Made by a program: the position numbers and the translations under genes. Below the pieces are notes generated by a model that worked only from the letters and a program-made list of their open reading frames with translations, had not been told where the DNA came from and did no database searches. A stretch of 36,177 nucleotides of DNA from a virus: positions 1 to 36,177 of the IMG/VR virus record IMGVR_UViG_3300012931_000013. The stretch is one strand, 5' to 3'. Below are positions 22,018 to 26,085 of the stretch, in pieces; positions within the stretch are counted from its first letter, which is position 1; every line of letters starts with the position of its first letter.

Positions 22018-22962
22018 TTATGCGAGTGCATATATTGAGCCGTGATAAGACTCGTGTGTAAAGTCGACGCCGATAAAACCCTCTATGTAACCGTTCTGTG
22101 CGCTTGTTGCGTCAAAATACTCGCGCATAAGAATGTCTTGACCGAGATTAGGCATTACAACCGGCTGGATATACGAAAGGTCTGCCGCGATAAGCGTGTT
22201 CGCAGGGGCCGCATTACTCCATATAAGAGCAACCGGGCCAAAAGTTGTATAAATCTGTTTGAGCATTACACCGCCGACGTTGCGGTCTTGCGGAGCGAAA
22301 CCATAAAGCGCGTTGAGTTGGTCGATATACGTCGGGCGTCCTACCAGGGCAATAGTGCCCATAGGTGCGCCGTTTTGTGCCATTGTAGTCATGAGTTGAG
22401 CAACCATATCAGAGTCAAGAGCCGCGCTTGATGCGTTCACCCTGTTTGTTTGAATTCCCACTGTTGAGTCGGTAAGACCACCCGCCCCTACGCCCGTAGT
22501 AACTATACTGCGCGCTGTGTAAGCCCCTTGCAAACAGGTAAATTCCCAGTCTGCGGAAAACTGTGCCATTGCGTTTTGAGCAGCGCGGTCAAATTCAGAA
22601 ACTTGCGGCAGGTTGCCTACATAGGTAGACGACGCGATTTCATTGTTTGCAGATTCGCGAAGATTTGAAACACCAAATTCAAGTTTTCTTACTTGCACGA
22701 CATTCGGACAAGATGTTTTCGCGTAAAACTTCTTTGTGCCCGCTGAAAGGCTTGTGTTTTCTGATATGTTATTTTGAGCCGGGGTATCAAGCGAATACGC
22801 CGCAGACATGTCAAACGTCTGTGATTTGATACGTCTTGCCCCGTTGAGTCCGCCGATTGCCGACAGGAATTGCCCAGTGTTTCTTGCCCCACCGATTTGT
22901 ATAATGTTACCCATTACATTGACATCATTAACACTTTGCGCTAATGCGCTTGTTGCTGCCAT
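22018..22962 (-). CDS. Major capsid protein, SU10/DUF5309-like (314 aa)
   Basis: Pattern GNIIQIGGARNTGQFLSAIG near the start, NVVQVRKLEFGVSNLRES, and a central block MVAQLMTTMAQNGAPMGTIA with the C-terminal FGPVALIWSNAAP and DLSYIQPVVMP matches the HK97-fold capsid type I associate with SU10-like or DUF5309 phages. It follows the scaffold gene with good ribosome binding site AAGAGGG. Short for HK97 proteins because the delta/scaffold function is separate (22976). Confidence 0.85.
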   Translation of the reverse strand: MAATSALAQSVNDVNVMGNIIQIGGARNTGQFLSAIGGLNGARRIKSQTFDMSAAYSLDTPAQNNISENTSLSAGTKKFYAKTSCPNVVQVRKLEFGVSNLRESANNEIASSTYVGNLPQVSEFDRAAQNAMAQFSADWEFTCLQGAYTARSIVTTGVGAGGLTDSTVGIQTNRVNASSAALDSDMVAQLMTTMAQNGAPMGTIALVGRPTYIDQLNALYGFAPQDRNVGGVMLKQIYTTFGPVALIWSNAAPANTLIAADLSYIQPVVMPNLGQDILMREYFDATSAQNGYIEGFIGVDFTHESYHGSIYALA

Positions 22963-22975
22963 ATTATATTCCCTC

Positions 22976-23590
22976 TTACTCTTTCAAAGTTTTTCCGTTG
23001 GCTACTGCCCAACGTTTTATTGATATTGCCACATCCATTTTTCCCGCCTTTTTTGCATCGTCGTACTGTTGCTGATATTTCTCCACCGGTGCGGTGTTTC
23101 CGCCTTTAGGTGTTTCTCCGCCTATTTTGCTTGCAACACCGGCTTTAACTCGTTCGGCAACAATAGCCTCTACAAAATCATTAAACGCTTTTACGTCCGC
23201 CGCAATCTCTTCGGGTGTATTCCCGCTGATGCGTTTATCCATGCTTGCGGGTAGTTTAAAATCGTTGAGCGCTTTCGATACCGCAAGACCGCGCTCGTAG
23301 TCTTGAGCTTTTTTCAATGCTTCGTTTGCTTTTTCTTCTGCGTCCTTAATTTTCTGAGCCGCAATCTCTTCGGCGGACATGGTAGCCTGTTTCAATGATT
23401 TATTTTCGTTCTGCAATTTGGTATTTGCCCGATTAAGGCCGTCAATGTCTGCTTTAAATCTTGCTTCAATTTTTTTGAGTATTGCCGATTCCAGTTCTTC
23501 GGCGGTTATTTGCTGCGTTTGTTTCTCGTCCTGCGGCTCGTTCGGTGTTTTTGTTTCCGTTTGCTCCGCCTGATTTTGATTTTCAGCCAT
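22976..23590 (-). CDS. Scaffolding protein (204 aa)
   Basis: ATG at 23590 is chosen because AGGAG lies 8 bases before it; an ORF is open from 23623. The protein is highly charged: Gln/Glu-rich start (MAENQNQAEQTETKTPNEPQ), a coiled-coil centre (residues about 40-110, Lys/Glu/Gln) and a C-terminal basic segment ending SIKRWAVANGKTLKE. This is the DUF4355-type scaffold that shapes the procapsid and is removed before DNA packaging. It has its own promoter at 23614-23642. Confidence 0.85.
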   Translation of the reverse strand: MAENQNQAEQTETKTPNEPQDEKQTQQITAEELESAILKKIEARFKADIDGLNRANTKLQNENKSLKQATMSAEEIAAQKIKDAEEKANEALKKAQDYERGLAVSKALNDFKLPASMDKRISGNTPEEIAADVKAFNDFVEAIVAERVKAGVASKIGGETPKGGNTAPVEKYQQQYDDAKKAGKMDVAISIKRWAVANGKTLKE

Positions 23591-23613
23591 TTTTAAATCT
23601 CCTATTTTGTTAA

Positions 23614-23642
23614 AATGTATCACAATATTAAATGTTTGTCAA
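23614..23642 (-). promoter_or_regulatory. Leftward late promoter before scaffold-capsid genes
   Basis: Minus-strand TTGACA (23642-23637), 17-bp spacer, TACATT (23619-23614), with the GTTAG-N6-CTAAC palindrome 10 bp upstream. It would give extra transcription of scaffold, capsid and tail genes. Confidence 0.65.
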
Positions 23643-23652
23643 GTCTAATTTT

Positions 23653-23668
23653 GTTAGTTTTGCCTAAC
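23653..23668 (-). promoter_or_regulatory. GTTAG-N6-CTAAC palindrome upstream of the capsid promoter
   Basis: Plus-strand GTTAGTTTTGCCTAAC, an inverted repeat of five bases around a six-base centre, 10 bp upstream of the -35 box. A near-twin stands at 32936-32951, 8 bp upstream of the other late promoter. The position fits a site for an activator. Confidence 0.65.
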
Positions 23669-23669
23669 T

Positions 23670-25541
23670 TTAGACATTTTTTGCATATTTTTTAGCGACA
23701 CCCCTATATACAGACGTTCCTGCAGTGTCCTTTTCCCACTCCGCGTAGTTTTTATAAGACATAATTACATTTTTATCTCCACTAACCGGGTCGCGACCGC
23801 GTCGTAAGGCCGGTTTAACACCGCCAACCACAGTCACGGTAGTGCAACGGCAATTATGGGCTAAAAAGCCTTGACAAAATTTGCCTGATGTGTTAACAAG
23901 ATACATATTATTTTTATTTTCGAGGTTGTATACATGCCCCAAAGAATCAGAAACATCAACGGAAACAACCTCACAAAGCTGTATATCGACGGAATGTCGG
24001 AAAAAGCAATCGCCGAAAAATTCAATGTATCTAGGAGCGTTATCCGCTTGCGCCTCATTGAGAATAATATCACCCCACGGAACAGGTCTGAATCCATGTA
24101 CAACCGAATGCAGCACACCGGCGACGATGATAGAAAAAAACTCACAAAAAAAGCTAATCTCGCGCTTAAGGGCGCAAAACAACCAATAGAAGGTCTCAAA
24201 AAAAGAGCGCAGGGGAAGCAGCGAACAAAAGCACTTGTCGGAAAATATTTTGAGCAAGATTTTTTTAGCCTGATATACGAATTTAATTTTGAAGTTGTTC
24301 CACAAAAAGCCATCTATATTTATAACATTGATTTCATGGTCAACGGCGTTCTCGTCGAGATTCACAGAGACAAAATTAACCCCATCAGAAGACAACATAA
24401 TGCTAAAAAAATCAAATATCTCCTTAAACACGGATTTAATATTTTCTTTTATTGGCTTAAACCGTCGGATATTCTGACTACCAGAAATATATATGATTTT
24501 ATCACTTTTCTTAATATGCTTGGCAGCAACCCAGCCCGCGGTGGTAAGTATCGTGTGGTTTCCTGTCGCGGCGATATTCTCGCCGATGTTTGTTTTGATG
24601 GTGAAAATTTGCCCTCTGTATAGTCTAGAAAAGATTCTTTTCGTCCCGCTTGAAAAAGCATATGTATCACCCGGGAAGCAATTAGGCTCACCTGGATACA
24701 TAATCCCGTTTGAAAACGGCTTGTCTATGTCTACGGTCTCCCCATCCATCTCACGGTGAGTGTCTCTTGTGACGCCGTCAAGGGTAGCCATCCACATTTT
24801 TTGAACGGGCAAGCCTTGGTTGTCGAGGTCAACGTCTGCCGCGTGCGCGCCTGCGTTCATCGTTCTTGTCGCCTCAGTCCGGATTATCCGCAGCGCGTTC
24901 GCCATTGCGCCCGTGTACGTATATGCCCCGTCTTTAATCATTTGCCGCCCTAAAACATCTTTGACGGCGTCAAGCATTCCGGTATAAGATTTCCCAGCTG
25001 CAAAACCTTGTGTCAAAGCATCCGCAAGCAGTTGCAAATCCTTGGTTGCGTGGTTTTTTAATAATTGGGATAAAGTGCCTGACTGCGGATAGTAATCAGA
25101 TAAATCGCCAAAACGTTTTTGCAGTTGTTTCGTCCATAGCGTATCTCGGCTATATACGGCGATATCTATTAGCGCTTTTGGTATAACACCGACGGATATC
25201 TCCGGGTAATCGTCAAGCCAAGAAGCAGAATAAAGCCGCTTGTAATACATAGACTGCAAGGCTATTTCGCTTGATACACCGATATATTTTGCAGCCTCTT
25301 TTGCTGCGGCTGTATATTCGGCGCGAACGGAATCAAGCAACGTTTCAAGCCGCTTGTATTTCATCATTTCGTTGTAGTAATCAGCGGGCTTTGCGCTTGA
25401 CAGTTTCGCGTATTGGTCTGCTAAAAGCGTGTCGATGTTTTTAATCGCTTTCTTATACGCCAAAAGCATTTCGCATTCGAGTACTTTTATTTCGTCGAGC
25501 GTTCGAGCCGCGGCCTCTTTTTGCATCTCAAGCCAAGTCAT
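23670..25541 (-). CDS. Minor head protein (Mu F / SPP1 gp7-like) carrying an intein (623 aa)
   Basis: The N-terminal extein, about 287 residues, is a helical head-morphogenesis protein (KKAIKNIDTLLADQY, YYPQSGTLSQLL, AMANALRIIRTEATRTMNAG). It leads to the family signature PGEPN-CRCT, which is split: after PGEPN comes an intein, and CRCT resumes after it. Such proteins bind the portal and help DNA packaging/injection. ATG at 25541 is chosen because it overlaps a 13-codon ORF stop (TAATG); the frame is also open from TTG at 25577. Spliced product would be about 347 residues. The intein host residue +1 is Cys, needed for splicing. Confidence 0.85.
   Translation of the reverse strand: MTWLEMQKEAAARTLDEIKVLECEMLLAYKKAIKNIDTLLADQYAKLSSAKPADYYNEMMKYKRLETLLDSVRAEYTAAAKEAAKYIGVSSEIALQSMYYKRLYSASWLDDYPEISVGVIPKALIDIAVYSRDTLWTKQLQKRFGDLSDYYPQSGTLSQLLKNHATKDLQLLADALTQGFAAGKSYTGMLDAVKDVLGRQMIKDGAYTYTGAMANALRIIRTEATRTMNAGAHAADVDLDNQGLPVQKMWMATLDGVTRDTHREMDGETVDIDKPFSNGIMYPGEPNCFPGDTYAFSSGTKRIFSRLYRGQIFTIKTNIGENIAATGNHTILTTAGWVAAKHIKKSDKIIYISGSQNIRRFKPIKENIKSVFKEIFDFFSIMLSSDGVNFVSVNLDENAVDHEINVINIDGFLWNNFKIKFVYQAKKILLKIFSDKCFCSLLPLRSFFETFYWLFCALKREISFFCEFFSIIVAGVLHSVVHGFRPVPWGDIILNEAQADNAPRYIEFFGDCFFRHSVDIQLCEVVSVDVSDSLGHVYNLENKNNMYLVNTSGKFCQGFLAHNCRCTTVTVVGGVKPALRRGRDPVSGDKNVIMSYKNYAEWEKDTAGTSVYRGVAKKYAKNV
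23853..24680 (-). mobile_element. Intein in the minor head protein (276 aa)
   Basis: Residue 1 is Cys (codon 24680-24678) in CFPGDTYAFSSG (block A); block B is AATGNHTILT with the T-x-x-H; block F is GHVYNLENKNNMYLVN; block G is FLAHN followed by Cys of the extein (codon 23852-23850). All residues needed for cis splicing (Cys1, TxxH, His-Asn, Cys+1) are present. The insertion splits the most conserved motif of the target, as inteins do. Between blocks B and F lies about 175 residues without LAGLIDADG or HNH motifs on this strand; instead an endonuclease ORF is encoded antisense. Confidence 0.9.
23934..24623 (+). CDS. Vsr-like/EDxHD-type homing endonuclease antisense inside intein (229 aa)
   Basis: Rightward ORF lying wholly inside the leftward intein. 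ATG has GAGG 8 bases upstream. Residues about 12-45 form a helix-turn-helix (LYIDGMSEKAIAEKFNVSRS), then a basic linker (60-105). Residues about 110-192 give a Vsr-fold-like core: YNIDFMVNGVLVEIHRD with D133, E142, H144, D146, then NAKKIKYLLKHGFNIFFYW. That resembles the EDxHD homing endonuclease family known from phage introns and split-intein loci. It would cut intein-free head genes and spread the intein. The tail beyond residue 197 lies opposite intein block B and may be dispensable. Family call is by motif memory; not searched. Confidence 0.75.
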   Translation: MPQRIRNINGNNLTKLYIDGMSEKAIAEKFNVSRSVIRLRLIENNITPRNRSESMYNRMQHTGDDDRKKLTKKANLALKGAKQPIEGLKKRAQGKQRTKALVGKYFEQDFFSLIYEFNFEVVPQKAIYIYNIDFMVNGVLVEIHRDKINPIRRQHNAKKIKYLLKHGFNIFFYWLKPSDILTTRNIYDFITFLNMLGSNPARGGKYRVVSCRGDILADVCFDGENLPSV

Positions 25542-25582
25542 TACTTCTTTTTCGTTCCTTTTTTCTTGGTACCACAAGCCAT
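25541..25582 (-). CDS. 13-codon lysine-rich upstream peptide
   Basis: ATG at 25582 with GAGG 8 bases upstream encodes MACGTKKKGTKKK and stops at TAA overlapping the ATG of the head gene (TAATG). The good ribosome binding site belongs to this mini-ORF, so the head gene is probably translated by coupling. Confidence 0.45.
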   Translation of the reverse strand: MACGTKKKGTKKK

Positions 25583-25593
25583 ATAATACCTCG

Positions 25594-26085
25594 TTAAAAT
25601 GTATATGAGCCTAAAATTTTAATCCCTATTATTTGGCGGTAGTCATTTATACCGCACGTAACACCACCACCGACGGCAAAACAACCAAAGTGTCGCAAGT
25701 ACATAACTTCAGGCGCGTAGTATAGAACTTTGTCAGCCATGTAAATGCCCGCCCCAGCAATAATCGTATTGCGCGGTTGCTTAACACTGATTTTTATTTT
25801 ATCCACGCGGCGACTACTATGATACCCGTTAGTAGCAACAATGCTGGCAATAAGAAGATTGCAATCATCAAAAACATAATCGCTATCAATATCGATTTCA
25901 GCGTCCAACGCTCTATTAACGTCTGCACTGTCCGCCCTATTAACATATTTTATTATCTCCTTTGTTTCTGTCGTTTCGATTGTGTTAGTAGCTTGCATCT
26001 TTAGACCATTAGATAGATTAAAACCGGTTAGATACCCAGTAAGAAATATAACCACTACACAAATTGCGTATATGTATTTTGTCAA
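25594..26085 (-). CDS. Membrane-anchored envelope protein, possible spanin (163 aa)
   Basis: TTG at 26085, with AAGGAG 8 bases upstream and overlapping the previous TGA, is the likely start; ATG at 26109 is an alternative. One N-terminal membrane segment (YIYAICVVVIFLTGYLTGF), a charged middle, and a C-terminal series of strands (NTIIAGAGIYMA, GCFAVGGGVTCGI, IIGIKILGSYTF) resembling an outer-membrane or surface beta domain. An inner-membrane anchor with periplasmic beta tail next to lysis genes suggests a spanin-like role and hence a Gram-negative host. This is inference. Confidence 0.55.
   Translation of the reverse strand: MTKYIYAICVVVIFLTGYLTGFNLSNGLKMQATNTIETTETKEIIKYVNRADSADVNRALDAEIDIDSDYVFDDCNLLIASIVATNGYHSSRRVDKIKISVKQPRNTIIAGAGIYMADKVLYYAPEVMYLRHFGCFAVGGGVTCGINDYRQIIGIKILGSYTF

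Follow-up and report, generated by a model that had tools for sequence, protein, structure and literature searches.

Genes and features at the locus

The window, by which we mean the whole stretch of DNA that was analysed, is a virus record of 36,177 bases. Its leftward strand carries a gene for a MuF-like minor head protein that is interrupted by an intein, and this intein is overlapped from the opposite strand by an ORF for a putative homing endonuclease (Table 1). A first-pass annotation, made from the sequence alone, had proposed a complete intein in the leftward head gene and, within it, a 229-codon antisense ORF whose ATG follows a GAGG motif after eight nucleotides. Both proposals were borne out. 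The Cys1 codon is found at 24678-24680, block B contains the TGNH motif, Asn276 is encoded at 23853-23855 and Cys+1 at 23850-23852; the features that define a class 1 intein (Cys or Ser at position 1, TxxH in block B, HN or SN in block G, and Cys, Ser or Thr at +1) are hence all present, and the ORF matches the Pfam families Intein_splicing and Phage_Mu_F.

Table 1. Features of the intein-bearing head gene and of the antisense gene (positions are those of the window)
Feature	Position	Strand	Evidence
MuF-like minor head (capsid morphogenesis) gene, intein host	23670-25577	-	635 residues; Phage_Mu_F E 2e-11; PHROG head/minor head families
MuF domain of the host head gene	about 24678-25028	-	Pfam Phage_Mu_F
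Intein, 276 amino acids, Cys1/TGNH/HN, then Cys+1	23853-24680	-	Pfam Intein_splicing E 2e-10; profile matches solved inteins; Hint halves pLDDT >90
Intein N-terminal splicing half, blocks A and B	24483-24680	-	pLDDT >90, residues 1-60; C1 and H42 invariant (n=53 inteins)
Sense intein middle, poorly predicted, facing the nuclease gene	23988-24479	-	pLDDT mostly <60
Intein C-terminal splicing half, blocks F and G	23853-23987	-	pLDDT >=87 in the blocks, residues 231-276
Antisense ORF, 229 amino acids, Vsr-like putative homing endonuclease	23934-24623	+	tblastn relatives; model pLDDT 90.5; Vsr/I-Bth0305I fold
Shine-Dalgarno GAGG preceding the antisense ATG by 8 nt	23922-23925	+	sequence; GGAGG-like site conserved (n=109 relatives); biased facing sense codons
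Intein block F HVYNLE, complement of antisense ribosome site and start codon	23919-23936	-	codon bias in relatives
Helix-turn-helix of the antisense protein, residues 10-43	23961-24062	+	weak Pfam HTH_7; gamma-delta resolvase-type HTH match; model helices
Vsr-like nuclease core, residues 101-198, invariant E107/D133/E142	24234-24527	+	relatives alignment; structure match

The antisense ORF, from its ATG at 23934 to a TAG ending at 24623, lies entirely inside the intein. The codons of the two strands face each other exactly, so that the antisense stop codons correspond to TTA, CTA and TCA in the sense frame. The resulting double-coding overlap amounts to about 690 bp in the window and to as much as about 900 bp in relatives. 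The region 22900-25700 also contains ten terminator-like hairpins where shuffled sequences led us to expect 2.8; one of these, at 24569-24585 on the plus strand, is situated within the antisense ORF.

Predicted structures of the two overlapping proteins

The first-pass annotation had called for a search of both ORFs for the folds it proposed, a Hint domain on one strand and a nuclease on the other. On the sense strand, Pfam, profile and Foldseek searches all pointed to inteins. An alignment of 53 inteins shows no variation at C1, H42 or N276, and the profile of the family matched solved inteins with E-values down to 4e-8. The structural model consists of two confidently predicted Hint halves (pLDDT >90) and a middle part, mostly below 60, that is the part facing the nuclease gene. 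Solved inteins were the best Foldseek matches of this model (probability up to 1.0), fulfilling the criterion for a Hint fold; their E-value of only about 0.005 is attributable to the ill-defined middle.

The antisense protein, modelled by AlphaFold with 60 aligned sequences, was predicted with a mean pLDDT of 90.5. A helix-turn-helix is followed by linker helices and by a core with the order helix, three strands, helix, strand, the alpha-beta-beta-beta-alpha-beta arrangement of Vsr. The best structural match was Vsr itself (1vsr; Z 9.9, rmsd 2.5 over 105 residues), followed by Vsr with DNA (1cw0; Z 9.4), I-Bth0305I (3r3p; Z 9.2) and an endonuclease-like protein (3hrl; Z 8.6), while the next entries scored Z 7.6. 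Foldseek alone returned no PDB match with an E-value below 0.001 for this model, and it was the second aligner that ranked Vsr at the top. Sequence comparisons agree with the structural assignment: 22 of the 60 family members matched the Pfam restriction nuclease model MTES_1575, and the family profile matched 3hrl (E 2e-4) and I-Bth0305I (E 0.009). The helix-turn-helix noted in the first-pass annotation was also recovered, by a weak HTH_7 match, a match to the gamma-delta resolvase type and the helices of the model.

Five residues (E107, Y130, N131, D133 and E142) are invariant across the 60 antisense proteins, and E107, D133 and E142 satisfy the expectation of conserved acidic catalytic residues for a Vsr-like PD-(D/E)XK nuclease. 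A catalytic stretch formed by D133, E142, H144 and D146 had originally been suggested. Its first two members stood up to this comparison, while H144 and D146 vary among the relatives, so that the H-D dyad of the EDxHD motif is not conserved and we refer to the protein as Vsr-like PD-(D/E)XK rather than as EDxHD proper. No catalytic Lys was identified in the antisense protein either; since the dyad is likewise unconserved, nuclease activity is inferred from the three acidic residues and the fold. The missing dyad, together with the fact that the helix-turn-helix repeats give the strongest sequence matches, would fit a DNA-binding regulator that merely retains a dead nuclease fold, in which case the intein would move by ordinary phage recombination. 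Such a protein would not be expected to keep E107, D133 and E142 invariant in 60 sequences, nor do the restriction nuclease matches in 22 of them, the profile matches to I-Bth0305I and a Vsr-like structure, or an element that is far more alike between phages than its flanks (see below) favor it; we regard it as very unlikely. The confident model instead describes a helix-turn-helix joined to a Vsr-like nuclease, with cleavage remaining an inference. A model without a nuclease fold had been named beforehand as grounds for refutation; the prediction shows the opposite.

The two-strand arrangement recurs among phages

A tblastn search with the antisense protein retrieved 115 phage records, 111 of which covered at least 80% of the query, at about 23-36% identity; most matches face genes annotated as head, minor capsid or hypothetical. 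The phages infect Salmonella, Klebsiella, Pseudomonas, Gordonia, Vibrio, Mycobacterium and other hosts, and many viral contigs belong to the family as well. The antisense frame was intact in all of the first sixteen loci examined, and also in Cronobacter ES2, virus Rctr197k and Vibrio H2. In the records examined, the antisense gene was unannotated save for one partial ORF and a free-standing relative.

Scans of viral contigs with the single antisense protein or the single intein of the window gave no matches, because both proteins are too diverged. We used two motifs, each of them directed at one strand. A degenerate DNA motif of 39 bases from the nuclease core, blind to the intein, identified at least 120 loci in viral contigs and seven in bacterial genomes. 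Among 146 listed loci, 131 had a single opposite-strand ORF that contained the two ends of the intein; in none of the 146 was an intein found on the nuclease strand, and two (L016 and L080) had no intein nearby. All 132 listed loci that could be oriented share one and the same codon-facing register over a GC range of 36-72%, and 131 of them have a continuous sense ORF. One locus, L102 (1414-2205, 1573-3180), has a stop codon in the sense intein frame and an intact antisense gene; it may represent a decayed or a naturally split intein, or a sequencing error.

The second motif, TPNHP..T..G from block B, reports on the intein only. It yielded at least 120 viral-contig loci, of which 108 were new. 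An open segment matching the antisense nuclease profile was present in the facing frame of 102 of these 108 listed loci; 84 were full length and most of the others were cut by contig ends. The remaining six, considered as possible decayed members, were rejected as such: they are terminase or helicase inteins that apparently belong to another clade. A broken antisense frame was thus seen in none of the 102 family members listed from this sense-only selection. Relatives that keep the intein while the antisense frame is broken at random, the outcome named beforehand as one that would refute the proposal, were accordingly not encountered. The two-strand intein design recurs in phages, and the example in the window is not a one-off.

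Host genes other than that of the MuF-like head protein include fusions of uracil-DNA glycosylase (UDG) and PolA, as well as genes for terminase, dCMP deaminase, a VG15 head protein and a chitinase-like protein. In virus Rctr197k (L265:1665-3017), the host of the intein and its antisense nuclease is a dCMP deaminase-like gene, interrupted at its PCVAC motif. A small tree of the family scatters the UDG cases and groups the protease-like ones in a single clade.

Start signals of the antisense gene are written in synonymous positions of the intein

The complement of block F (H-V-Y-N-L-E) spells both the ribosome site and the ATG of the antisense gene. In 109 relatives, the Leu of this block is encoded by CTC in 78% of the cases, the proportion in the remainder of these genes being 27% (z 12.9); for the His ahead of it, CAT is used in 84% compared with 42%. 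Farther upstream, a bias of equal strength is present at two adjacent codons of block G as well (z 10.5 and 13.1), where the antisense strand has no known coding function. It leans toward TATAAT at positions -51 to -46 from the antisense ATG, where TGTGCTATAAT or a similar sequence often occurs. All six bases of TATAAT are present in 18 of 92 loci; matches exceed the synonymous expectation in AT-rich (z 3.8), middling (z 8.4) and GC-rich loci (z 5.2), and in the relatives the sigma-70 scores are above those of all 24 permuted motifs. The second, sense-selected set of loci repeats these biases (CTC 60% vs. 30%, z 5.4; CAT 84% vs. 40%; TATAAT z 9.6).

The first-pass annotation had assumed a separate rightward transcript for the nuclease. 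This inference is supported by the codon bias toward a putative -10 box upstream of the ribosome site in the relatives. A search of the window itself revealed no clear promoter (seven matches vs. 5.6 expected), so that the case for a promoter rests on the relatives.

Selection acts on both reading frames

The evidence for selection given here, like that for empty insertion sites given below, comes from relatives with about 20-36% protein identity; the window has no close relative. Nominal P values are inflated, since many of the related loci are not independent of each other.

A register in which antisense stops can arise only from TTA, CTA and TCA favors long open frames whenever these codons are rare. 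The antisense ORF might consequently be a mere shadow of the sense gene, its similarity between phages mirroring that of a conserved intein. Long chance antisense ORFs are indeed common in this register, and GC-rich loci can have very long ones (e.g., 1066 codons in L011). We counted the antisense-stop codons. Across 116 loci, none was seen in the overlap where 711 were expected from the codon frequency elsewhere in the same sense ORFs, the count being made within the HMM envelope (257 codons on average). This count is mildly circular, as the counted region is a profile match inside one open ORF; that of the second, sense-selected set was left unused, since delimiting its region within a single open segment makes it circular. 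Even so, for a mere shadow it is difficult to account for the 32 loci below 50% GC, with 12.7 antisense stops expected in each and none seen.

The pattern of substitutions points in the same direction. Between close relatives (80-90% identity), differences in the overlap are distributed over antisense codon positions 1, 2 and 3 as 0.35, 0.14 and 0.51, while in the N-extein, which served as a control, they fall on sense positions 1, 2 and 3 as 0.15, 0.09 and 0.76. The antisense wobble position thus changes most in the overlap, more than the sense wobble position and contrary to the pattern of a gene read in the sense frame only. A shadow would also leave unexplained why synonymous bias writes a ribosome site, an ATG and a -10 box, why the antisense protein is modelled confidently as a nuclease when the sense middle is modelled poorly, and why Acinetobacter phages have an annotated gene for a free-standing homologue. 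We can give this explanation next to no credence; the antisense ORF is, on the strength of these sequence comparisons, more than chance.

Substitution rates per opportunity, pooled from 13 near-disjoint pairs, were 0.056 for changes silent in both frames, 0.028 for those silent only in the antisense frame, 0.014 for those silent only in the sense frame and 0.0036 for those silent in neither. Relative to the doubly silent rate, sense-changing substitutions hence occur at about 0.49, antisense-changing ones at about 0.25. Because changes to either protein run below the doubly silent rate, we infer purifying selection on both, and a stronger one on the antisense protein. The conservation of the antisense frame in related inteins, which had been put forward as a check, was thereby found, and extends to both frames.

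The weaker constraint on the sense frame, the disordered appearance of the middle of its protein and the stop codon in L102 could be taken to mean that only the antisense gene still functions, as a mobile element, and that the sense frame, although open, no longer splices. An intein that had ceased to splice would hardly retain C1, H42 and N276 without exception in 53 sequences, Hint halves predicted with pLDDT >90, a sense ORF unbroken in 131 of 132 listed loci and a twofold reduction of sense-changing, antisense-silent substitutions; nor would it be expected in exteins that include head, UDG, polymerase and terminase proteins. We consider the loss of splicing very unlikely.

Evidence for mobility of the intein element

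Empty insertion sites are known from relatives only: in Escherichia phage HSE2 and Salmonella phage ER10, the head gene is short of exactly 816 nt at the intein site. LSPA1 and LP31 share 96.0% identity in the intein and 70.0% in the N-extein; for Snoke and LP31 the corresponding values are 95.3 and 69.8%. As inteins 95-96% identical are found in head genes whose N-terminal parts are only about 70% identical, the sequences indicate that the element moves. Snoke (L004) and the intein-less Escherichia phage Schulenburg (L154) are 99.4% identical up to the site and 76.5% identical after it, from which we deduce a recombination breakpoint at the intein site. The site of Schulenburg is altered (PPAHF-GCRS) and an HNH gene lies downstream; its junction resembles one left by break repair, or else a resistant site. 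For site-specific cleavage by the nuclease, which is inferred, mobility and the breakpoint provide only indirect support.

In Acinetobacter phage IME285, the antisense nuclease has a free-standing homologue that is convergent with a complete, intein-free MuF gene, the two (L016:455-1348 and L016:1342-2055) overlapping by 7 bp. This arrangement could plausibly be an ancestral or a derived stage.

A probable mobile intein with its endonuclease gene on the opposite strand

We are confident, short of certainty, that the locus represents a mobile intein with a homing endonuclease gene encoded antisense to it. What this analysis established, for the greater part in relatives, comprises the two overlapping genes and the selection acting on each, the folds predicted for their products, the codon bias toward start signals, the empty sites and the horizontal movement; splicing, cleavage, antisense transcription and nuclease-driven movement are inferences drawn for this reading. 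The mRNA of the head gene would be translated into a precursor that loses its Hint domain by self-splicing. The helix-turn-helix and Vsr-like nuclease would come from a transcript of its own, running rightward, which in relatives apparently starts from a -10 box opposite block G and is translated from the ribosome site and ATG opposite block F. At the insertion site, this enzyme would cleave host genes that lack the intein, and repair from an intein-bearing copy would carry the intein and the nuclease gene along together.

More broadly, we lean, with considerable reservation, toward the view that phage inteins include a large, obligately two-stranded class, in which an antisense endonuclease has its promoter, ribosome site and start codon in the synonymous positions of blocks F and G, with same-strand, out-of-frame nucleases as a second solution. 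Ordinary inteins often lose their endonuclease. If the present view is true, writing on two strands hinders the separate decay of the splicing part and the nuclease, and the absence of a nuclease-less member among those listed would follow from the fact that the overlapping parts cannot easily decay apart. Splicing and homing would be uncoupled in expression and locked together in sequence. The family offers a natural test of whether overlap shields a homing endonuclease from the decay expected by the homing cycle, a set of new Vsr-like nucleases whose likely targets are known, and a case, amenable to statistics, in which the codons of two proteins face each other one by one. Many regions called hypothetical gain a likely function, since the antisense gene is unannotated in most examined records.

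Comparison with known mobile elements

The first-pass annotation knew of no intein with an antisense endonuclease, and our literature search, which did not cover subscription papers and most preprints, likewise found none. The parts are known and their architecture was not found described; absence from the literature is no proof of novelty.

The endonuclease of inteins is known as a domain within the intein's own polypeptide. In those of the PI-MtuI and PI-PfuI type, as here, a Hint domain interrupts the host protein and the endonuclease is encoded at the usual position between blocks B and F. The nuclease described here differs in that it lies outside the spliced polypeptide, in a separate gene on the opposite strand, and is Vsr-like instead of LAGLIDADG. 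Fractured genes reportedly combine split inteins with Vsr-like (EDxHD) endonucleases, the endonuclease gene splitting the host gene in two. They share with the present family a Vsr-like nuclease tied to an intein or intron, and I-Bth0305I is among the fold matches of the antisense protein. In contrast to fractured genes, host gene and intein of the window remain a single continuous sense ORF, which does not meet the criterion for a split intein, the nuclease gene overlaps it in antisense and the EDxHD dyad is unconserved.

Endonucleases are apparently hidden in inteins in a second way. Three terminase or helicase inteins (L176, L220 and L227; sense motif at 3647 in L176 and 1463 in L227) enclose, on the same strand but in the +1 frame, an open ORF of 177-223 amino acids that begins with a Cys-rich stretch and encodes a DUF559 nuclease domain (Pfam E 3e-12 to 2e-6). 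A terminase intein in L184 (sense motif at 2029) harbors an out-of-frame HNH_3 endonuclease ORF, also on the same strand (Pfam E 8e-16). The ShiLan domain of mycobacteriophage methylases is an insertion that encodes an out-of-frame endonuclease on the same strand (PMC11855218). It resembles the present family in that an endonuclease is hidden in another frame of an insertion that is also read through in the host frame, and differs by its same-strand, HNH-type nuclease and its lack of a splicing domain. The window intein, with its Hint domain and a nuclease on the opposite strand, is not of this type.

Antisense homing endonuclease genes have been described in nuclear rDNA group I introns (PMC9548176). 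These are RNA introns of eukaryotic rDNA with His-Cys nucleases and spliceosomal introns, and they involve no double coding of two proteins. They have in common with the intein studied here an endonuclease gene placed antisense within a self-splicing element, and in both systems the two parts therefore need separate transcripts.
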